From contig NZ_CP108070.1 in assembly GCF_036178845.1 (NCBI RefSeq), positions 1,178,001 through 1,242,000 of the forward strand: a stretch of DNA of 64,000 bases. The letters are read 5' to 3'. The notes beneath the pieces were generated by a model. That model was not told where the DNA came from, did not search any database, and saw only the letters and a list, made by a program, of their open reading frames with translations. Positions 43,050 through 52,444 of the stretch are shown here, piece after piece. This DNA is from Streptomyces sp. NBC_00271 (GTDB lineage Bacteria; Actinomycetota; Actinomycetes; Streptomycetales; Streptomycetaceae). Every line of letters begins with the position of its first letter. Positions within the stretch are counted from its first letter, which is position 1. The translations under genes were made by a program, and so were the position numbers.

Positions 43050-43660
43050 ATGGCCGTGTCCGGGGCGGGAGTTGGGCGTTCCGATGTGGGAACGTCGCCG
43101 TGGATCGTGTCGGATGAGCTGTGGGACCGTCTGGAGCCGTTGCTGCCGCAGCGCGAGCGCAGGTTCCGGTATCCGGGTCGCAAGGCATTGCCGGACCGCG
43201 AGGTGTTGTGCGGGATCCTGTACGTCCTGCACACCGGGATCCAATGGGAGTACCTGCCGCAGGAGTTGGGCTTCGGCTCGGGCATGACGTGCTGGCGCCG
43301 GTTGCGGGACTGGAACGAGGCCGGAGTCTGGCAGCGGCTGCACGAGGTCCTGCTGGCCGAGTTGAACGCGGCCTCGCGCCTGGACTGGTCTCGCTGCGTG
43401 GCCGACTCCTCCCACGTCAGGGCGTTAAAAGGGGGCAGCACACGGGGCCGTCGCCGGTCGACCGGGGCCGGCCCGGCTCGAAACACCATCTGATCACCGA
43501 CGGGCACGGCACCCCGCTCGCGATCCTGCTGACAGGCGGCAACCGCAACGACGTCACCCAGCTGCTTCCCCTGCTCGACGCGATCCCATCGGTCCGCGGC
43601 CGGGTTGGCCGTCCCCGCCGCAAGCCTGACTCGCTCTTCGCCGACCGCGGCTATGACACC
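43050..43660 (+). pseudogene. IS5-family (IS427-type) transposase, two-frame and 3'-truncated
   Basis: The first frame (43050-43493) reads WIVSDELWDRLEPLLPQRER, GILYVLHTGIQWEYLPQEL and VADSSHVRALKGG, the usual N-terminal DUF4096 and first Asp. The continuation (GPSPVDRGRPGSKHHLITDG, GGNRNDVTQLLPLLDAIP, LFADRGYD) is in the -1 frame after a TTAAAAGGGGG run at about 43424-43434. Such runs are programmed -1 frameshift sites in this IS group. Family similarity ends at about 43655, before the conserved WVVERxFAWLxxxRRL block with the final Glu, so the element is a 3'-truncated remnant. Confidence 0.8.
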
Positions 43661-43838
43661 GGCCTGGACTGGGTCCTGGACGCCGTGGCCGCCAAACTCA
43701 CCCGGCCGCCGACGTGACGCTCAGCTCTTGCCAAATGTGAGCGAGGTCGGGGTCGCGCAGATCGACCGTTGGTGAGCGACCCGGCGACGTGCAAAGCCGC
43801 TGCTTTGATGTGCGGCTCAAAACCGTCACGGACATCTA

Positions 43839-43888
43839 CGGCCTTGGGGACTAGCGGAACAGCCAGTAACGCTAAGCACTTGATCTTG
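43839..43888 (+). repeat. Left terminal inverted repeat of the Tn3-family transposon
   Basis: Fifty bases matching the complement of 52342-52391 with two mismatches, bounded outside by ATCTA. The inner part ends CTAAGCACTTGATCTTG. Confidence 0.93.
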
Positions 43889-43898
43889 CTACGTTCGC

Positions 43899-44250
43899 CT
43901 ACAACTCAAACGTCAGCTGCCCGCCGGTTTCGAGCGCGGTATGCCGGGTCTGGGCCCGGGTACGGGCGTGGTGGTTACGGTCGTAGTGCAGGTGGCAGCC
44001 CTGGCATGGCTTTGAGGTTGGCCGGGTGACAGTTCTCCGGCGTGTGGTCGAGGTGCGCGCTCTCGTCGTCAGGATGACCCGCGAACCGGTGCCGTACACG
44101 GGCTGTCCGTGCCGGTTGGGACACCGGCCGGGGTGACTGCCGCGTCCGCACTCGCCTTCACACTCGCACCGCCAGCCGGCGCGTTCGTTGATGGCGTTGG
44201 AGATGTCCGGCCAGTCGGCGGGACAACGCTCGCGGTCCTAGGGACGGATC
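43899..44250 (-). pseudogene. HNH-endonuclease-like gene remnant inside the transposon
   Basis: The reverse strand encodes PADWPDISNAINERAGWRCE and CGRGSHPGRCPNRHGQP, with CQGCHLHYDRNHHARTR and TALETGGQLTFEL after a gap. These fit small zinc-binding HNH proteins. The core AHLDHTPENCHPANLKAM that should join the two parts lies in another frame, bounded by two compensating frameshifts. No start codon is found, as a TAG lies just upstream. The HNH catalytic loop is therefore scrambled. Confidence 0.55.
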
Positions 44251-44261
44251 GGCACGTGGGG

Positions 44262-44933
44262 TCACCGTTCCGCAGCGTCGAGCTGGTGGGGGACGGCGGA
44301 GGCGCGCAGGTCTTGGAGGTCGGGGATGTGGTTGTAGAGGGTGCCCGGGGAGATGCCCAGCATTTTGGCGATCGAGGTGATGGAGCGGCCGGGGTCGGGC
44401 AGCAGGTCGCGGGCGGCGCGGATGACTTCCTCGGTAGCGACGGTGGGGCGCCCGCCGACCCGGCCGCGGGCGCGGGCGGCGGCCAGGCCCTCGCGGGTGC
44501 CCTGGACGATGAGTTCGCGGATGAACTCCGCCAGAGCGGCGAAGACGTGGAAGACGAGTCGGCCGCCGGGGGTGGTGGTGTCGAGGTTCTCGTGCAGCGA
44601 GGTGAAGCCGATCCCGCGCGTCCGGAGTTCGGCGACCATGTTGATGAGGTCCTGGAGGCTGCGGCCGTAGCGGTCGAGCGACGGGACGACGAGGGTGTCG
44701 CCAGCGTCGAGGAAGGCGTGGCACGCCTTCAATTCCGGGCGGAGGGCGTTCTTGCCGGACTTCTTGTCCGAGAAGATCTTCCGGCATCCGGCGGTGGTGA
44801 GGGCGTCGATCTGCCGGTCGAGCTTCTGTCCGCCGCTGGACACCCGCGCGTACCCGATCTTGATCTCGGTGCAGACAAGCGGTTCGGCAACGAGGAGTTC
44901 GGGGTGGCCGGACGGCTCCGGAGTGTCACTCAT
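44262..44933 (-). CDS. tnpR: Serine recombinase/resolvase (TnpR) of the transposon
   Basis: 223 residues. The catalytic domain begins KIGYARVSSGGQKLDRQ with the nucleophilic Ser (about residue 32 or 33). VVPSLDRYGRSLQDLINMV carries the active-site Arg residues. The long E helix GGRLVFHVFAALAEFIRELI follows. The C-terminal Hin-type HTH reads SITSIAKMLGISPGTLYNHI. Tn3-family resolvases break down cointegrates at a res site, probably in the 277-base gap upstream (44934-45210). Confidence 0.92.
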   Translation of the reverse strand: MSDTPEPSGHPELLVAEPLVCTEIKIGYARVSSGGQKLDRQIDALTTAGCRKIFSDKKSGKNALRPELKACHAFLDAGDTLVVPSLDRYGRSLQDLINMVAELRTRGIGFTSLHENLDTTTPGGRLVFHVFAALAEFIRELIVQGTREGLAAARARGRVGGRPTVATEEVIRAARDLLPDPGRSITSIAKMLGISPGTLYNHIPDLQDLRASAVPHQLDAAER

Positions 44934-45120
44934 GACCCCGGATCATGTCAGAAAACGGTGGTCGAGGGTTCTTGAATGACCCAGGTTTTTGAAGGGTTTT
45001 TTGAAGGGGCTGCGGGGTGTGCGGACCCCCGCACGGTGATCTTCAGAAAACGTTCGTTTTTTGAAGGCGAGGCTCGTCGACCCGCATCGTCTTCTTTGTT
45101 GGATGGGAGTGTCGCAGTAG
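44934..45120. promoter_or_regulatory. Candidate res site/promoter region of the resolvase
   Basis: This AT-richer stretch next to tnpR has TCAGAAAACG twice (about 44949 and 45045), three TTTTGAA or TTCTTGAA runs with AGG following (about 44968-45068), and GGACCCCCGCAC. Repeated 10-12-bp motifs beside a resolvase gene are typical of res subsites. The exact subsites were not resolved. Confidence 0.4.
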
Positions 45121-45210
45121 GGGCGGTTGGTGCGATGCCGGGCCCTCATCAGCACCCCGGGCGAGACTCTGACGGCACGGTCGGCGGCAGCCCGGCGGGG
45201 ACGCAAGGGG

Positions 45211-45693
45211 TCATCCCGGTTTCTGATCGATCTCGGCGAGTCGCGCCTCCACCTGGTCTCCCAATTCGATCAGCAGGTCCATCTGCGCAGGGGTCACGTG
45301 GTCGATCAGCACATTGCGCACGTCAGCCAGGTGGAGCGGGGCGGCTGCCTCAACGAGGGTGCGGCCCTGTTCGGTGATGACCACGACGGCCCCTCGCTGG
45401 TCGGTCGCGCATCGCTCGCGGCGGATGAGGTTGCGGTTCTGCATGCGGGTCAGATGCTGCGACAGACGGCTCTTCTCCCATTGCAGCGCATCTCCGAGTG
45501 CGAACGACCGCAGGCGTCCCTCGGGCGCCTCAGACAGGTGCGCCAGCACCTGGTAGTCGGCGGTGGACAGCCCGCTGTGGGTGCGCAGCTGCCGCTCGAT
45601 GTATTCGGACAGGCCGGCCTGCATCTTCATGAGGCTGCGCCAAGCCCGCTGTTCACGCTCGTCCAGCCATCGCGGTTCGTCCATGAAGCCCAT
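45211..45693 (-). CDS. MarR-family transcriptional regulator
   Basis: 160 residues from ATG 45693; an in-frame ATG at 45684 behind GGATGGG would give 157. The winged-helix core reads GLSTADYQVLAHLSEAPEGR, then FALGDALQWEKSRLSQHLTR and RNLIRRERCATDQRGAVVVI, the wing with its conserved Asp-Arg. The C-terminal helices form the dimer arm. No cysteine sits at the OhrR/HypR sensing position near the N-terminus; Cys96-97 beside the wing could be redox-active. Two palindromes lie in the shared upstream region, so it most likely represses itself and the divergent reductase cassette. Confidence 0.9.
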   Translation of the reverse strand: MGFMDEPRWLDEREQRAWRSLMKMQAGLSEYIERQLRTHSGLSTADYQVLAHLSEAPEGRLRSFALGDALQWEKSRLSQHLTRMQNRNLIRRERCATDQRGAVVVITEQGRTLVEAAAPLHLADVRNVLIDHVTPAQMDLLIELGDQVEARLAEIDQKPG

Positions 45694-45704
45694 CCTACCG
45701 CTTT

Positions 45705-45755
45705 GGTTGACATGTTAACCAGTCCGTCGTACGGTTTGGTTAACACCTCAACCAA
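45705..45755. promoter_or_regulatory. Paired MarR operators in the divergent promoter region
   Basis: GGTTGACATGTTAACC (45705-45720) and TTGGTTAACACCTCAACCAA (45736-45755) share the half-site TTGGTTRAC and are each near-palindromic. They lie 12 bases upstream of the MarR start and 115 bases upstream of the COG2085 gene. Position and symmetry fit MarR operators. Confidence 0.75.
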
Positions 45756-45869
45756 ATGGACTTGCGGAGGTCGGAGCCGCCTACAGAAACGCGGCGACGA
45801 CAGGCCGGGCGGCGAAGCCGCTCCGCCGCCTCGACAGCCCTCAGTAACCGACTGGAACTGGAAACACTC

Positions 45870-46481
45870 ATGTCTGCAGACACCCGCTACGCCATCGTGG
45901 GCACCGGAAACATCGGTTCGGCGCTGGCGCGTCTCTTCGCCCGGGCCGGAGTCGAGGTCAGCATCGCCAACACCCGCGGACCGGGCTCGATCAGCGAACT
46001 CGCCGCCTCCTGGGGTTCCACGGTCCGGGCCGTGACGCTCACCGAGGCACTGGCGAGCGACGTCATCTTCATGGCCATCCCGTTCGGCGCAGTCGAGACG
46101 TTCGGCAACGCCCTGCCCGACTGGAACGGGAAGATCGTCGTCGACACCACCAACGCGCACTACGCGCCCAACGCGGGCGACATCCTCAAGGGTCGGCTCT
46201 CCTCGCAGTACGCGGCCGAGGTCCTGCCCGGCGCCCAGATCGTGAAGGGCTTCAACCACCTTCCCGCCCAGACGCTCGCCGCCGAAGTGCCCTCCGGCCA
46301 GGGCAAGCGCGTGGTCTTCGTCTCCAGCGACTCCGGGGAGGCCAGCTCCCAGATCGCCGAGTTCGCCCGCACGCTCGGCCTGTCGCCGGTGGAACTCGGC
46401 AGGATCGACGAAGGCGGACGCCTCATCGAGGTTCCCGGCGCACTGGTGCTCAGGAACTTCACCGAACAGCCCCTCACCTGA
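45870..46481 (+). CDS. NADP/F420-dependent oxidoreductase-like protein (COG2085)
   Basis: A 203-residue Rossmann protein. YAIVGTGNIGSALARLFARA is the dinucleotide-binding loop. FMAIPFGAVETFG, VVDTTNAHY, VKGFNHLPA and VFVSSDSGEASSQIAEFA match the F420H2:NADP reductase-like family that often serves quinone or flavin chemistry. It heads the rightward operon controlled by MarR. The electron donor (NADPH or F420H2) cannot be fixed from the sequence. Confidence 0.85.
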   Translation: MSADTRYAIVGTGNIGSALARLFARAGVEVSIANTRGPGSISELAASWGSTVRAVTLTEALASDVIFMAIPFGAVETFGNALPDWNGKIVVDTTNAHYAPNAGDILKGRLSSQYAAEVLPGAQIVKGFNHLPAQTLAAEVPSGQGKRVVFVSSDSGEASSQIAEFARTLGLSPVELGRIDEGGRLIEVPGALVLRNFTEQPLT

Positions 46482-46745
46482 TCGGCCGCGTTCCGCCTTC
46501 CACAGGCGGTGCGGCCGGCGCCGACGAGCCGTCCCGCCTCAGCGTCTGCCGTCACCGGCCGCACCGCGGCGGCCGGCGCCCGGCCCGCGGCCGGGTTGCC
46601 GCGCAGCAGCGCTCTCCATCGATGAGACCGCACTTCAGCAACGCTCACGCGTGAGCAGCAAAACCCGCCGGCACACCCATCCTCCACGGATGCCGGTCCC
46701 TCACAGCTCGGGCGGTCCGAATCACTCTCCAGAAAGGCATGACCC

Positions 46746-47117
46746 GTGTTTGTCTTCGCCGCCGTACTGAGCGTTCTGCTCGCCGTTGTCGGGCTGGCCG
46801 CCGGACTACCGAAAGCCCTGCTCAAGGGCAGCATTCCAGCCCAGTTGCAGTCTCCCGGAGGCTTCAGCGCCCCGCTGGTCCGGTTCATCGGGCTGGCCGA
46901 GCTGGCCGCAGCCGCAGGGCTCATCGCCGGTCTCTTCTGGCAGCCCATCGGCGTTGCCGCCGCCCTGGGATTCGCAGTCCTGCTCGTCGGAGCCGTCGGC
47001 TTCCACGCCAAGTCCGGCGACTACGCCAACCCCGAGACCCGCGGCAACGCGATGGCACCCATCATCCTCACCGTCATCGCGATCGCTGCCGCCGCCACGC
47101 TCGTCCTCGCCTCCTGA
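46746..47117 (+). CDS. DoxX-family membrane protein
   Basis: 123 residues beginning at a GTG with AGAAAGG upstream. Four membrane helices; the LVRFIGLAELAAAAGLIAGL segment with a charged Glu in the second helix is typical of DoxX/DoxD-like proteins. Related proteins support quinone-linked detoxification or thiosulfate oxidation at the membrane. The 264 bases before it show no gene. Confidence 0.8.
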   Translation: MFVFAAVLSVLLAVVGLAAGLPKALLKGSIPAQLQSPGGFSAPLVRFIGLAELAAAAGLIAGLFWQPIGVAAALGFAVLLVGAVGFHAKSGDYANPETRGNAMAPIILTVIAIAAAATLVLAS

Positions 47118-47255
47118 CCAGCGCCTGAATCCGAGGCGCCACAGCTCACCTTCCGCCCGGCAAACCCGGCCGGGTGATCGCGAGACCGCCCTCGCTACGC
47201 GGACCGTCACCGATCATCCGCCTTCCCGACCACTGCTACACCTGAGGAACATCCC

Positions 47256-47909
47256 ATGACCACTCTTCTGCACCTCGATTCCTCGCTGTTTTCCGGCGAC
47301 GCCTCCTCCTCCCGCGCCGTGACCGCCGCCTTCCGCCGGACCTGGCAGGAGCACCACCCCGAGGGCACGGTCATCTACCGTGACCTCGCCACGAACCCCG
47401 TACCGCACCTCACCGCCGACGCCCACACCGCCGGCCAGACCGACCCGGCCACGCACACCCCCGCCCAGGCCGCCGCCCTCGCCCACCGGCTGACGCTGAT
47501 CGACGAGCTGGAGAACGCCGACGCCATACTGATCGGCGCTCCGATGTACAACTACTCGATTCCCTCGACCCTCAAGGCGTGGCTCGACAACATCGTCCTC
47601 GTCGGCCGCACCGCCGGCGTGGAAAGCTCCAGGCTCAAGGGCACCTCCGTCACCGTCGTCGCCAGCCGCGGCGGCTCCTACGCCCCGGGCACGCCCCGCG
47701 AGGGCTACGAATACGTGCAGAACTACCTCACGGCCGTTCTGGCCGACGCGCTCGCCCTGGACGTGAACTTCATCGTCCCGGAGCTCACGATGGCCGTACA
47801 CAATCCGGCGATGTCCCAGCTGATCCCCCTCTTCGAAGCCTCCCGCCAGCAGGCACTGGATGACGCAGCCTCCACGGCCAAGGCGATAGCCCACCGCATC
47901 GCCGCCTAG
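47256..47909 (+). CDS. azoR: FMN-dependent NADH:quinone oxidoreductase / azoreductase
   Basis: 217 residues of the flavodoxin-like AzoR family: LLHLDSSLFSGDASSSRAVT for FMN phosphate, APMYNYSIPSTLKAWLDNIV (the PMYNF.IPS.LK motif), and TVVASRGGSYAPGTPREG at the other FMN contact. These enzymes reduce quinones and azo compounds by two electrons and are often induced with MarR-type repressors by electrophiles, which fits the locus. A perfect 14-bp hairpin follows the gene. Confidence 0.9.
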   Translation: MTTLLHLDSSLFSGDASSSRAVTAAFRRTWQEHHPEGTVIYRDLATNPVPHLTADAHTAGQTDPATHTPAQAAALAHRLTLIDELENADAILIGAPMYNYSIPSTLKAWLDNIVLVGRTAGVESSRLKGTSVTVVASRGGSYAPGTPREGYEYVQNYLTAVLADALALDVNFIVPELTMAVHNPAMSQLIPLFEASRQQALDDAASTAKAIAHRIAA

Positions 47910-47926
47910 AAACAGCGCCCTCCGGA

Positions 47927-47958
47927 CGGCGGCCGTGAAGCACGCTTCACGGCCGCCG
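47927..47958 (+). terminator. Hairpin terminator after azoR
   Basis: CGGCGGCCGTGAAG (47927-47940), CACG loop, CTTCACGGCCGCCG (47945-47958): a perfect 14-bp stem. It marks the end of the azoR transcript; the luciferase-like fragment begins immediately beyond it. Confidence 0.85.
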
Positions 47959-47962
47959 TGGG

Positions 47963-48280
47963 CGAACTCCAGCGGGGACAGGCGGCTGGCTGCCCTCGAA
48001 GGAATTTCTCGCCCCGGAGGAGCTGGACGACGCGAACCGGCGAATCGACGAGGCGGCCGGCGCTGCCGGGCGGGACCCGAGCCGGACCAACCGGGTCTAC
48101 AACCTGGTCGGTGACCGTTCGACTACGCAGCGGGTCGACCTGCTGACGAGCTGGTCGGTCGAGCACGGCATGAACGGCTACATCTTCAGCGGCCCGGTCG
48201 ACGAGTCCGCGCTGCGCCCCATCATCGAGAAGGTCGCGCCCGCCGTGCGCGAGGCAGTCGCAAAGGAGCATCGACGATGA
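47963..48280 (+). pseudogene. C-terminal fragment of an LLM-class flavin oxidoreductase
   Basis: An open frame without a start reads GGWLPSKEFLAPEELDDANR, then EAAGAAGRDPSRTNRVYNLV, and later EHGMNGYIFSGPVDESALRP. This is the last 100 or so residues of luciferase-like monooxygenases. The FMN-binding barrel is absent. Its TGA overlaps the ATG of the hemerythrin gene (ATGA at 48277-48280). The two were probably an operon before the transposon captured only this 3' part. Confidence 0.7.
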
Positions 48281-48795
48281 CACAGCCGCAGGCGGGAACT
48301 GTCGCCGGCCGCCAGATGGTGCAGCAGCTGCTGATGGCGCATGCGCCGCTGCGCAGCGACGTCGCCGCCCTGCGCAAGGGGCTTGAGGTGCTCGATGCGG
48401 CGACCACACGCGCAGAGGACATCGAGGAGCTGCTCGGCGGTCTGACTGTCGCGGACCTCACCTGGCAGCTCAAGGTGGGCTGCCAGCATTTCTGCGCCCA
48501 CCTGGACGCCCACCACACGATCGAGGACGCTCGGATGCTGCCGGTCATGCAGCACCGGTTCCCCGAGCTCACCGATCAGATCGGGCGGCTCCGGCGCGAG
48601 CATGAGGAGGTCAAACAGATGATCGTGAGCATCCGCGCCGACGCGCGGCAGCTGAACCCCAAGGACGAGCGCTCCGTCCACGTGGTGCTGGAACAGATCG
48701 TCGCGCTTGCCGACCACCTCCAGGCCCATCTCGACTTCGAGGAGCGCACCCTCTTCCCGTACTTCCTGCGGATGGACCACGACTGGCACGCCTGA
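48277..48795 (+). CDS. Hemerythrin-domain protein
   Basis: 172 residues, with the HHE pattern on an all-helical fold: LLMAHAPLRSDVAALRKGLE, then FCAHLDAHHTIEDARMLPVM, HEEVKQMIVSI and HLQAHLDFEERTLFPYF. The His and Glu residues are spaced to hold a di-iron centre. Such proteins bind O2, NO or iron and often serve oxidative or nitrosative stress. Start overlaps the stop of the luciferase-like fragment, with AAGGAG upstream. Confidence 0.88.
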   Translation: MTQPQAGTVAGRQMVQQLLMAHAPLRSDVAALRKGLEVLDAATTRAEDIEELLGGLTVADLTWQLKVGCQHFCAHLDAHHTIEDARMLPVMQHRFPELTDQIGRLRREHEEVKQMIVSIRADARQLNPKDERSVHVVLEQIVALADHLQAHLDFEERTLFPYFLRMDHDWHA

Positions 48796-48913
48796 GCTGT
48801 TCTGGCCGGGAGGGTGAGTTTGGAGCCGCGGACGGCCGTGCCGCCGCGCCATGGAGGCTTTGAAGCTGGACGCTGAGCTTGACTCTGACACGAAAATTGA
48901 GGCTTCGTGGAGG

Positions 48914-49036
48914 TCAGGTCGCCTCGATGGGTTCGAAGCGGATGGCCATCGGCGCGTCCCTGCGGTCGGCGGCGAACCGCTCGTTGGCCTCCCGCAGGTG
49001 CTCCCTAATCTCGTCGTGCGAGTCCGTCACGGTCAT
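48914..49036 (-). CDS. Small protein, 40 residues, between the cargo and tnpA
   Basis: MTVTDSHDEIREHLREANER, ending RFEPIEAT. GAAGGGGG lies about 8 bases before the ATG at 49036. High GC3 and a charged helical composition suggest a real small gene. It follows tnpA on the same strand, 85 bases behind its stop. Function unknown; it could be a transposon-encoded accessory peptide. Confidence 0.5.
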   Translation of the reverse strand: MTVTDSHDEIREHLREANERFAADRRDAPMAIRFEPIEAT

Positions 49037-49121
49037 ACCGGCGCCCCCTTCTCACTGCCCCGCCGGTCGGCGGTGGTCTTCTCGAAGTACAACGACCCGC
49101 CCCGGACGGCGGATGCGGCGC

Positions 49122-52100
49122 TCACTCCTCCTGGCCGTCGTCGTCATCGTCGAGGTCGATGGCATCCGGGTAGCGCAGGGGCCGCAGCCCCTTCACCGGC
49201 TGGGAGGCGGTGAAGTTGTACCGGCCCAGGACGTTCAGATTCTTGTGCTTGAGCGGGGAGAGCCGGGCGACGTCCTCGTCGCGGATCTCGTGGCCCTCCG
49301 CGCGGAGCTGGGCGACGGCGGCGTCGATGTAGCGCGTCGTCCACAGGACCACGGCGTTCAGCACGAGCCCCAGCGCCCCGAGCTGGTCCTCCATCCCGTC
49401 CCGGTACGCCTGGTGGATGGTGCCCTTCTTGCCGTGGCAGATGTCGCGGGCGAGCTTGTGGCGGGATTCCTGGACGGTGAGCTGTTTGTGCATCTGGCGG
49501 CGGTAGGTGTCGTCGACCGGGTCGACGACGGCGAGCAGGTGCAGGGTTTTGGCGATGCGCCCGTACTCGGCGAACGCCTGCCCCAGCGGGGCGGGATGCC
49601 CCTCTCTGCCGAACATCCTCAGCAGGTCGTAGGCGCGGACCTGGTTGGTGACCAGGGAGCCGGCGACCCGCAGCATGTCCGGCCAGTGCGTGATCACCTT
49701 CTTCACGTTCACCTTGTTCCGCGCGATCGCCTCCAGCGGCCCGTACCCGCCGGCCGTCTCGGCGCCGGGCATCTGGGCCTTCCAGAACCTCTGGTCTTGA
49801 AGGTCCTTGAAGCGCGGGGAGAAGCGGTAGCCGAGCAGCTTGAAGATGCCGAAGACCATGTCGGAGTAGGAGGCGTTGTCGGTGGCGACCATCTCCGGCT
49901 TCACTCCGCCGTCCAGGTTCAACAAGGCGTCCAGGATGAACAGGGAGTCACGCGGGGTGCCGGGCACCACCATCTGCCCGATGCCGATGACCTGGTCGTT
50001 GATGGCGTTCAACCATGTGATGCCGGTCTTCTTCGCGAAGTACTTGGGTGAGGGGGCCGCGTTGATGGTGCGGACGGGGACGACGAACCGCAGGCCGTCG
50101 ACGGAGGCCAGCAGCCCCTTTCCCCAGTGCTCGACGATGGGCACCTGGGCCTGGGCGGCAATCAGGGCCGCGTTCGCCGCGGCGATGGTGTCGGCGCGCA
50201 GATAGTACTGGTCGACGTGGACCAGCCGGGAGCGGGTCAGAGCCTCGTGGTTGGGGTTGATGACCGGAGTCATCCCGATGTTGCACGCCTCGCTCACCAG
50301 CAGGGCGACGACCGAGGTGGTCAGGTCCTTCATCCGGGTTCTGCCGTCGCCCAGATGCACGAAAGCGTCCAGGAACCCGGTCCATGAGTACACCTCGAAC
50401 AACAGGTCCGGCAGGTCGATCTTCGGAAGCATCTTCTCGACACGCTCGCGCAGCCACTTCAGCGACTTCGGCTCACCCAGCGCATGGAGCTTCTCCACGT
50501 TCAGCTTCGCCCGGCCGTTTGGCTGCACCTCGATACTGATCTTCGCGTCGGAGCCCGCCTCCTGAAGGCGCTCGGCCATCTGCTTCCACGTCGCGTCCAG
50601 CACGGCGACCAGTTCCCGAAGGTGCTGTTCGGCGTCCTCGGCCAGGCTCAGGCCCGCCAGGACGTCCTCACGCACCGCCTCCCACCCCTTGCCCTGAAGC
50701 AGCCGGGCTCGCGGGTCGGACCAGCGGTGCGAGGGCGAGGCGAAGATGTCGCGGCGCCTCAGCGCGCCGAACAGCTGCTCCAGCACACACACCACGTACG
50801 CATCACGGTCCACCGCCCCCTGCGGCAGCTCCGCGTTCGCGTACACGGCCTTGCGCCAGTGCGCCGGCACCAGCTTGTCGTCGACCTCGCGCGGCAGCAG
50901 CGGCTTCTCGCCCACCTTCCGCCGGGAGAGAGCCGGGAGCCGCTGCACCCCAGTGAGGATCCGTCTGCCGGCGGGCGCCGCGTCCAGCGCCTTCGACTCA
51001 CCCAGCAGCGACAGGAACGGCCTGACGGTGTTGTAGCGCAGCGCCAGCGCCCCACGCAGCGCGGTCTCCGCCGTGCCGTCGTCCTCCGGCACCAGGCTCA
51101 CCACCGTGGCCGCCGCGCTGGAGAGCGCGGCCCGGGGCGCGACCTCTTCCAAGGCCCGCCACAGCGCGGCCACGTCGACATCGCAGCCGCTCCCCTCGAT
51201 GAGCTCCAGCTCCTCGGTGATCACCTTCGAGACCCGGGCGGTGATCCGTGCCGCCTTCTCCAACTGCGGAAGCGTGGACAGGCGCTGCTTGTCCGTGGAC
51301 CGCCTCGCGGAGCTGATCAGCCGGGTGGCCATCAGGATCTCGAAAAGGTCCAGCGCGTCGTCGATCGCCTTCGCCTCCAAGTGGCGCATCACCGCGGTGA
51401 GCATCGCCGTGCGCCTGGGCTCCGGGGTCCGCTCCAGCTTCGGCGCCTTGGTGCCCAGCCCGTACCGGGCCAGCGCGGACAGCCGGTTCGGCGGAACCTG
51501 CTCCAGCCTGAGACGGCCCAGCTGGAAGGCGGCGATGTCCTCGACCCGCTGCAACGCGGCCTTCATCGCGGTGCCGGTGGTCCGCGTCGGCGGTCGGCGC
51601 ATCCGCTCCAGCTCCGAATGCCGTTTGCCCTCCGGCGTCTTCAGCGTGGCAACCAGGTCGCCGGGCAGAGCCGGGTCCGCCCGCCGGGCCGCCCTGGCGA
51701 CCGTGGCGTGCAGCCGCTTGTCCGCGACGCCGCGGACCTCGGCGACCTGCCGGGCCAGCACGCTCACTCCTGGCAGCAGCACCCGGTTGCGGCGCAGCCA
51801 GCCCACCGCGTGATCGAACAAAGCCTTCGGCCCCTCCGCGTGCGCCGTCCACGCCCGGCCGTGCAGGAAGGCCCGGAACTTCCGGCCCTGGTCGTGGTCC
51901 TCATACTGGTGATAGCCGTACGCGTCACGTATCTCCCACGCGTGCTCGTACGGCGTCGGCCTGCGCTCGGTATACCGCTTGATCTGGGAGACATCCCCGA
52001 TCCCCAGCTGCTCGGCCAGATGCTCGACGACCGGCCACGGCACCGCGAGGGGGTCCTCCAGGAACAGCCCGATGTACCGCACCGTGCACATCTGAAGCGC

Positions 52101-52274
52101 GAAGCCGAGACGGTTGTGGTCGCCGCGCCGCTTCGCGATCAGCTTCAGGTCCTCGTCATCAAGGAAGAAGAACCGCTCCAGCTCGGGCTTCGTCGGCTCC
52201 TCGGCGAACTTCCCATACGCCTCAGCCTGCTCATCAGTCAGAAATTCCACCGGCATGCGGCGGACCGTAGCCAT
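49122..52274 (-). CDS. tnpA: Tn3-family transposase TnpA
   Basis: A 1050-residue transposase, close to the family's usual 950-1050. Start at ATG 52274; an in-frame ATG at 52256 (MPVEFLTDEQ) also fits. The N-terminal DUF4158 (ERFFFLDDEDLKLIAKRRGD; FALQMCTVRYIGLFL) binds the ends. The C-terminal DDE core includes YYLRADTIAAANAALIAAQA, KPEMVATDNASYSDMVFGIF, YRFSPRFKDLQDQRFW and HKLARDICHGKKGTIHQAYR with its conserved acidic and basic residues. An acidic DLDDDDDGQEE tail ends it. It has no internal stop and should be active. Confidence 0.95.
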   Translation of the reverse strand: MATVRRMPVEFLTDEQAEAYGKFAEEPTKPELERFFFLDDEDLKLIAKRRGDHNRLGFALQMCTVRYIGLFLEDPLAVPWPVVEHLAEQLGIGDVSQIKRYTERRPTPYEHAWEIRDAYGYHQYEDHDQGRKFRAFLHGRAWTAHAEGPKALFDHAVGWLRRNRVLLPGVSVLARQVAEVRGVADKRLHATVARAARRADPALPGDLVATLKTPEGKRHSELERMRRPPTRTTGTAMKAALQRVEDIAAFQLGRLRLEQVPPNRLSALARYGLGTKAPKLERTPEPRRTAMLTAVMRHLEAKAIDDALDLFEILMATRLISSARRSTDKQRLSTLPQLEKAARITARVSKVITEELELIEGSGCDVDVAALWRALEEVAPRAALSSAAATVVSLVPEDDGTAETALRGALALRYNTVRPFLSLLGESKALDAAPAGRRILTGVQRLPALSRRKVGEKPLLPREVDDKLVPAHWRKAVYANAELPQGAVDRDAYVVCVLEQLFGALRRRDIFASPSHRWSDPRARLLQGKGWEAVREDVLAGLSLAEDAEQHLRELVAVLDATWKQMAERLQEAGSDAKISIEVQPNGRAKLNVEKLHALGEPKSLKWLRERVEKMLPKIDLPDLLFEVYSWTGFLDAFVHLGDGRTRMKDLTTSVVALLVSEACNIGMTPVINPNHEALTRSRLVHVDQYYLRADTIAAANAALIAAQAQVPIVEHWGKGLLASVDGLRFVVPVRTINAAPSPKYFAKKTGITWLNAINDQVIGIGQMVVPGTPRDSLFILDALLNLDGGVKPEMVATDNASYSDMVFGIFKLLGYRFSPRFKDLQDQRFWKAQMPGAETAGGYGPLEAIARNKVNVKKVITHWPDMLRVAGSLVTNQVRAYDLLRMFGREGHPAPLGQAFAEYGRIAKTLHLLAVVDPVDDTYRRQMHKQLTVQESRHKLARDICHGKKGTIHQAYRDGMEDQLGALGLVLNAVVLWTTRYIDAAVAQLRAEGHEIRDEDVARLSPLKHKNLNVLGRYNFTASQPVKGLRPLRYPDAIDLDDDDDGQEE

Positions 52275-52341
52275 CCCCCACCAGCGATCAGGGACCTTCC
52301 GCCGAACCCCCGCACGGCACCGATCACCTGTGCTAGAAGCC

Positions 52342-52391
52342 CAAGATCAAGTGCTTAGCGTTACTGGCTGTTCCGCTGGTTCCCAAGGCCG
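52342..52391 (-). repeat. Right terminal inverted repeat of the Tn3-family transposon
   Basis: Complement of the left repeat; it reads CGGCCTTGGGAACCAGCGG from the outside. It lies 67 bases upstream of the tnpA start and is followed by the second ATCTA. Confidence 0.93.
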
Positions 52392-52444
52392 ATCTACGCG
52401 ACGCATCGCCTCAGTTCAGAGTCCAACCGCACACATCGAGAGTC

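Follow-up and report, generated by a model that had tools for sequence, protein, structure and literature searches.

The window analysed here, 64,000 nt of Streptomyces sp. NBC_00271 (contig NZ_CP108070.1, positions 1,178,001–1,242,000), contains a Tn3-family element (43839–52391) bounded on either side by the pentanucleotide ATCTA. On the reading we favour, to which we give a slightly better than even chance, it is a unit transposon of Streptomyces carrying a self-regulated reductive detoxification module. Between the arms lie, in order, genes for a serine resolvase (tnpR), a MarR-family regulator, a COG2085-type protein of family PF03807, a DoxX-like protein and an AzoR-type protein, then a 92-amino-acid (aa) remnant, a hemerythrin gene and the transposase gene (tnpA). 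Judged by its ends and proteins, the element is intact and has every part that should be needed to move. This mobile part is ordinary and consists of the following features:

43834..43838, no strand: left target-site duplication ATCTA (sequence read, junction comparison)
43839..43888, + strand: left terminal inverted repeat, a 38-bp Tn3-type repeat (43839–43876) plus 12 bp (arm pairing)
44262..44933, − strand: tnpR, serine recombinase/resolvase, 223 aa (PF00239; alignment to solved relatives)
44934..45067, no strand: putative res, conserved half-sites at 44948, 44996 and 45042–45066 (TTCAGAAAACGTTCGTTTTTTGAA) (alignment of Tn3 elements with other cargo)
49122..52274, − strand: tnpA, Tn3-family DDE transposase, 1050 aa (Pfam and NCBIfam profiles, alignment to Tn4430 TnpA)
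52342..52391, − strand: right terminal inverted repeat (arm pairing)
52392..52396, no strand: right target-site duplication ATCTA (sequence read, junction comparison)

The two arms measure 50 nt each and are 96% complementary. An earlier note, a model's reading of the bare sequence, had reported 50-bp ends with two mismatches, an ATCTA duplication, TnpA and TnpR, and all of these hold, with the correction that the Tn3 end proper comprises 38 bp within the arms, the repeat length of the Tn3 family; the same 38-mer occurs in other copies and in sister elements. Identity of a single pair of 5-bp flanks has a chance probability of about 1 in 1000. In the sequences compared, all three two-ended copies carry a 5-bp duplication, each a different one: ATCTA in the window, CTTTT at locus L016 and GGTCA at L044 (genome G454).

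TnpA has the size of a Tn3-type DDE transposase (about 1000 aa), matches PF01526 over the full profile together with PF13700, and scores 840 bits against NCBIfam transpos_Tn3 (cut-off 500). It aligns with the transposase of Tn4430 over residues 29–1036 (E = 3.6e-96), and the printed part of the alignment contains D, D and E columns common to both, which we take to be the catalytic ones. TnpR matches PF00239; its nearest solved relative, ahead of the gamma-delta and Tn3 resolvases, is a DNA-invertase, presumably Gin, and Ser32 falls in the alignment column of that relative's RVS-motif serine, whose role we assume it to share. Upstream of tnpR, the half-sites of the putative res are conserved in an alignment of 25 rows, corresponding to about 15 distinct sequences (nine own-genome loci were left out; among the rows are repeat entries for genomes G454, G271, G304 and G033, and two pairs are nearly identical). 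TnpR would resolve cointegrates at this site. The tnpR-side homology of other elements ends at 45066–45072 in 8 of the 29 matches listed and earlier in the other 21.

Our survey of further copies took in 22 loci. When the whole element was compared by megablast with 72,556 plasmid records, 114 (103 from Streptomyces) showed some match, and in a single record the match extended over at least 80%. The linear plasmid of S. mirabilis NBC_01248 (L016) carries a 98% identical copy with both ends; together with G454 (L044) this makes two other two-ended copies, 98–99% identical to the window element. Partial copies keep the left end in G304 (L046; match ends at 48178) and on plasmid NZ_CP109471 (L017; match ends at 48613), and the copy in G271 (L045) has neither end. 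With the PF03807 protein as query, 242 pattern matches in genome contigs came down to eight loci. The S. diastatochromogenes locus has the same right junction as S. mirabilis and is therefore not an independent copy; the MBT65 locus keeps the right end and a shortened tnpA, the left end being absent; SBT349 holds a relic with split tnpR; the remaining loci are one in Actinacidiphila (L057), two in NBC_01549 and two more distant or partial. Three copies with one end lie at other sites, which brings the distinct junctions to six (window, L016, L044, L017, L046 and L056). A search for the ends and cargo, proposed in the earlier note, thus returned further copies at different genome and plasmid sites, and because copies with different 5-bp duplications sit in different replicons, comparison shows the unit to be mobile. 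In its own 12.28-Mb genome (window in contig 1) a query with the left end matched just the two arms, which suggests that the genome has no second copy; sequences resembling the ends were detected in 11 of 199 relatives, own genome included.

Some of these loci carry traces of their own history. In relics of different hosts (L018 7994–8433, L058 5945–6330, L054 6994–7433) tnpR is split at the same place, about residues 96–101, which suggests shared descent of one disabled copy. At L046 (11886–12211) the left end of the element directly adjoins a portion of another Tn3 transposase gene, which may mean that one Tn3 element inserted into a second.

The cargo is rare rather than a fixed chromosomal locus. 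Some match to the element occurs in 389 of 392 genus genomes, most listed rows being the azoreductase or the tnpR region alone; among the matches listed, the inner region (3.9–4.6 kb at 99–100% identity) is present in at least 4 of the 392, own genome included, and it is therefore not a fixed locus. With the eight best first-look candidates scored per genome, the COG2085-type protein is found at E ≤ 1e-80 in 5 of 392 genus genomes, in four of them within the element (own, G271, G304 and G454) and in the fifth, G448, as two copies at 70–71% outside it; at E ≤ 1e-70 it is found in 2 of 394 class-sample genomes (own and G454). These counts speak against the situation that would have undermined the earlier note, cargo fixed across the species with the ends absent. 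The azoreductase does have common resident relatives, and the tally of 21 of 61 genomes (own included) for the hemerythrin takes in distant relatives (26–39% identity).

Sister elements have the backbone in common and differ in cargo. L050 and L051 encode TnpA proteins 90–91% identical to the window protein and keep both ends; L051 has AGATC at either flank and TetR and MFS genes as cargo, and L050 carries a SpoIIE-type gene between flanks that do not match. At L047, a DsbA-like gene separates tnpR (91% identical) from tnpA (70% identical).

The cargo and the genes that follow it comprise the following features:

45057..47959, no strand: four-gene cargo module common to Actinacidiphila L057, which lacks tnpR (homology edges)
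45211..45693, − strand: MarR-family regulator of AbsC/SCO3205 type, 160 aa (profile, solved relatives, alignment)
45702..45722, no strand: candidate operator 1 (TTTGGTTGACATGTTAACCAG) (dyad, pattern scans)
45735..45756, no strand: candidate operator 2 (TTTGGTTAACACCTCAACCAAA), invariant in 11/11 aligned loci, which are not independent (dyad, pattern scans)
45870..46481, + strand: COG2085-type NAD(P)-binding protein (PF03807), 203 aa (profile, solved relatives)
46746..47117, + strand: DoxX-like membrane protein (PF13564), 123 aa, GTG start (profile)
47256..47909, + strand: flavodoxin-fold protein (AzoR) resembling flavin mononucleotide (FMN)-dependent NADH-azoreductases/quinone reductases, 217 aa (profile, solved relatives)
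47926..47959, no strand: hairpin after azoR, right module edge (self-complementary match; edge from L057 homology)
48002..48280, + strand: C-terminal remnant of a luciferase-like (LLM) protein, 92 aa, its TGA overlapping the next ATG (match to the LLM-hemerythrin protein of G143)
48277..48795, + strand: hemerythrin HHE protein, 172 aa (profile)

Five Pfam families score above their cut-offs in this cargo (MarR_2, F420_oxidored (PF03807), DoxX_2, Flavodoxin_2 and Hemerythrin), and the earlier naming of the MarR, DoxX, azoreductase and hemerythrin genes was right. The proposal that a MarR-linked redox cassette moves as a unit stands as well, but by homology the coherent cargo is a 2.9-kb module of four genes (MarR, COG2085-type, DoxX and AzoR, with the hairpin), to which the hemerythrin and the luciferase-like part seem not to be integral: the remnant is broken, and the module edge at 47959 lies before it. 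L057 matches 45057–47959 at 88.7%, a stretch comprising the right half of the outermost res subsite, the MarR, PF03807, DoxX and AzoR genes and the hairpin, with no tnpR. The hairpin is not among the sites given by the terminator scan (four found versus 3.0 expected).

The left edge of the module, where homology with L057 starts (45057), falls within the outermost subsite of the putative res. Three plasmid records (NBC_01527, NBC_01230 and NBC_00055) share the stretch from 44503 to about 47235 at 90.3%; these relics contain the join of tnpR/res to the MarR module, which is therefore older than the recent spread of the element. The two of these records that were examined have a split tnpR and, in place of AzoR after DoxX, a gene annotated as VOC in which no Pfam domain was found. 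The COG2085–DoxX–AzoR trio occurs again in NBC_01549 in another gene order, at about 69–83% protein identity. The module would have become joined to the transposon by recombination in or close to the outermost res subsite, and we infer that the resolvase made this join.

The 92-aa remnant alone gives no Pfam match, and its description as a luciferase-like fragment holds through a protein of genome G143 (L096 32–1402; 456 aa from GTG, cut by the contig start) that contains Bac_luciferase and Hemerythrin domains and is matched by both the remnant and the hemerythrin. Because both correspond to parts of this one protein, their origin may be an LLM-hemerythrin fusion or gene pair whose first part is now broken. 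The remnant differs among copies; the hemerythrin has no solved relative at E ≤ 0.001. Ratios of nonsynonymous to synonymous substitution rates (dN/dS; computed over 13 loci from the single best tblastn stretch of each gene, stop codons left out) for the hemerythrin gene are 1.33 over 120 codons in the decayed L017 and 0–0.62 in four other loci. We propose that the two genes form a looser tail, either hitch-hikers or a secondary addition.

The best solved relatives of the MarR regulator are 3zmd (2.9e-27) and 3zpl (5.3e-26), the latter of which we take to be SCO3205; OhrR and a multidrug operon repressor are far weaker. The structure 3ZMD is AbsC, which binds salicylate in a pocket with Trp18 and His120, and SCO3205 has two operators between divergent genes, with the consensus TTnAAnnnTCAA (PMC3737563). 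In the element MarR, Trp18 and His121 align with the AbsC pair, which is invariant in seven aligned proteins, so that relatedness and pocket residues both place it in the SCO3205/AbsC subfamily. Its lone cysteine is likewise invariant in all seven, four resident paralogues included, and for that reason seems to be a subfamily trait with no special bearing on redox sensing. The thiol-redox sensing suggested in the earlier note is weakened accordingly, the AbsC pocket pair being kept.

Two dyads, spaced 33 bp apart, lie in the gap between the divergent MarR and PF03807 genes. In the window there are three places with the relaxed frame TTnA-n4-TnAA, derived from the published consensus, two of them in this gap; 0.5 are expected, and 1 of 100 shuffles reaches three. 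Dyad 1 has two variable columns in diverged rows and dyad 2 none in 11/11 loci, eight of which are near-identical copies including the window, with L055 sharing the right junction of L016, so these are not 11 independent observations. A longer pattern, derived from the two sites themselves, gives eight rows in the 12.28-Mb genome at up to one mismatch (four being these two sites on both strands and four elsewhere), and its backwards control gives one row; one of the matches elsewhere closely precedes a MarR paralogue at 5807063. This paralogue (L075 3558–4894, contig 1 at about 5.807 Mb) has one operator-like site 26 bp upstream, and its neighbours, judged by eye, are riboflavin-type genes. 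A resident pair of divergent LigB-dioxygenase and MarR genes (L079, 2130–3585) has two operator-frame sites, with 0.05 expected in 7 kb and the start codon taken about 30 codons inside the longest frame, an arrangement resembling SCO3204/SCO3205. Taken together, the Trp/His pair and the relaxed operator frame favour an aromatic ligand over cysteine-based redox sensing.

The nearest solved proteins to AzoR are the azoreductase 7awv and the FMN-dependent NADH:quinone oxidoreductase 9l10. The PF03807 protein is nearest to the uncharacterised protein 4huj and to STEAP oxidoreductases, with the F420:NADP oxidoreductase 5n2i far weaker. Against TIGR01915, the equivalog of F420-dependent NADP reductase (NpdG), it scores 33.4 bits, far below the cut-off of 149.8; "F420" is therefore here a Pfam family name only, and of the NADP/F420 reductase announced in the earlier note the PF03807/COG2085-type protein stands, and F420 use is not supported. 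The own genome also holds a resident azoreductase relative (79% identical DNA; L078 3149–4278, contig 1 at about 6.13 Mb), divergent from an HxlR-family regulator gene in an arrangement that we take to be reminiscent of YodB–azoR1. By analogy, reductive handling of aromatic or quinone electrophiles is the most likely function, with chances that we put at about even. The cassette may serve in defence against electrophiles or azo compounds, as first suggested. A role in phage defence was discarded, as a PADLOC scan of five cargo proteins returned weak partial matches for two of them only.

On the favoured reading, a dimer of the AbsC/SCO3205-type MarR would sit on the two dyads between the divergent genes and repress both. 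An aromatic ligand, such as a salicylate-like acid, phenol or quinone, would bind in the Trp18/His121 pocket and release it. AzoR would then use NAD(P)H and FMN to reduce quinones, azo or nitro compounds; the COG2085 protein would serve as a reductase linked to NAD(P)H, and DoxX would act at the membrane. The transposon unit would thereby supply an extra inducible copy of a reductive function beside the resident HxlR-adjacent azoreductase.

Several observations weigh against this reading. Neither dyad fits the strict SCO3205 consensus, and shuffling the bases of the intergenic region gave a dyad at least as good as the best single one in 92 of 1000 trials. The longer pattern has one exact match away from the element, at 7420312 of the genome, and two of the four resident paralogues, L076 and the AbsC-like L077, show no operator frame in the 200 bp upstream. 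The three forward genes are separated by 264 and 138 nt, so a single operon is uncertain, and the scan for sigma-70-like promoters found none (0.4 expected). Relative to the diverged loci L018, L057 and L058, dN/dS is not uniformly low (COG2085 0.21–0.56, doxX 0.24–0.60, azoR 0.45). As L057 has no tnpR, the module may have other routes of transfer as well. Both other two-ended copies are damaged: L016 has lost 236 bp around the 3′ end of the hemerythrin gene, truncating the protein, and L044 has about 1.7 kb inserted between tnpA and the right end, with the tnpA frame seemingly broken near residues 63–75. When the joined flanks (242 nt) were compared with 150 genomes in search of an empty target site, 40 gave some match and no listed row, own genome included, spanned the join with both flanks; in the own genome the two flanks match separately.

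The genes could instead be chance passengers of a promiscuous Tn3 backbone, functionally unrelated and mostly neutral, as the quite different cargo of the sister elements, the broken or variable tail (the truncation in L016, the dN/dS of 1.33 in L017) and the decay of several copies (L045, L046, L056 and L058) would lead one to expect. We consider this rather unlikely, since the four genes and the dyads are kept together at about 89% identity in Actinacidiphila L057, three of the four stay together in the 90%-identical plasmid relics, and the COG2085–DoxX–AzoR trio recurs in a different order in NBC_01549. Relative to L018, L057 and L058, moreover, marR has dN/dS values of 0.09, 0.10 and 0.15 and looks to be under purifying selection.

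Two further explanations keep the module functional and change its purpose. Its natural role might be the metabolism of aromatic compounds or antibiotic precursors, with MarR acting as a catabolic switch in the manner of the SCO3204/SCO3205 pair. The resident paralogue beside a LigB-type ring-opening dioxygenase gene (L079) points this way, as do the relics with a VOC-annotated gene next to DoxX, for what an annotation without a Pfam domain is worth. However, no ring-cleavage or transport family appears among the element proteins scanned with Pfam, and reductases with DoxX suit detoxification at least equally; we regard this role as decidedly unlikely. A thiol- or redox-sensing MarR of OhrR or HypR type governing defence against hypochlorite, quinones or azo compounds, with the hemerythrin and luciferase-like genes taking part, is improbable. 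The azoreductase-type and hemerythrin domains are genuine, and MarR- and DUF24-type repressors do control azoreductases in the quinone stress response of Bacillus (PMC6798810). Against it stand the single cysteine, invariant in 7/7 proteins including the four resident paralogues, the closest relationship to AbsC and SCO3205, and the position of the luciferase remnant beyond the module edge; an OhrR-like thiol sensor was rejected on the first two grounds, OhrR being a far weaker relative.

The layout of the element has a precedent in Tn4556 of Streptomyces fradiae, which likewise has 38-bp repeats, 5-bp duplications, and tnpA and the resolvase gene at opposite ends with passengers between; it differs in its length of 6625 bp, in a resolvase with the phage-integrase motif PF00589 in place of the serine type PF00239, and in its passengers, a methyltransferase and an isoprenyl diphosphate transferase (PMC6403206). 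The cargo is the new part. For the regulator, the closest solved relatives, SCO3205 and AbsC of S. coelicolor, correspond to it in the salicylate-pocket pair and, for SCO3205, in the two operators of a divergent intergenic region, and differ in being resident regulators, in the dioxygenase-like sco3204, and in the strict consensus that the element lacks (PMC3737563). In Bacillus and Staphylococcus, quinone stress is met by MhqR and YodB/QsrR, MarR- or DUF24-type repressors controlling azoreductases and ring-cleavage dioxygenases; the available part of that account names neither a transposon nor a COG2085 gene in these regulons (PMC6798810). The MhqR operator TATCTCGAA-aTCGAaATA has no match in the window at up to three mismatches, so that the likeness is one of functional analogy, not of membership in the regulon. 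No Tn3 element with such cargo was found among the open-licence papers listed (for one query, 8 of 60), judged by titles and abstract starts, most subscription journals lying outside this scope.

Two further features concern the left side of the element. Inside the left end of the transposon, on the − strand (43966..44171), sits a degenerate remnant that resembles mycobacteriophage genes for HNH endonucleases (76.7% across 206 bp of the query). Immediately to the left lies an IS4/IS5-type transposase gene (43050–43717), with PF13340 on 43050–43493 and a continuation in another frame (43121–43717) judged by eye.

Mer-carrying Tn3-family transposons such as Tn21 and Tn501 are resolvable units with a regulator-controlled detoxification cassette, comprising MerR and mercury reductase. 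Here MarR and quinone/azo-type reductases would take these places, the substrate being only predicted. We tentatively suggest, as a possible if doubtful generalisation, that the element represents a mer-like class of transposons for organic electrophiles, in which an aromatic-induced MarR quinone/azo-reductive module, loaded at the res crossover subsite, has spread among Streptomyces chromosomes and linear plasmids, res serving as a general port for cargo exchange. If so, the sharp cargo edge at res would offer a testable picture of how cargo changes in such elements, and the MarR–operator pair would be a small self-contained switch with a predicted ligand class. Soil Streptomyces would then swap inducible resistance to toxic aromatics by means of the same transposon class that spreads mercury and antibiotic resistance elsewhere.

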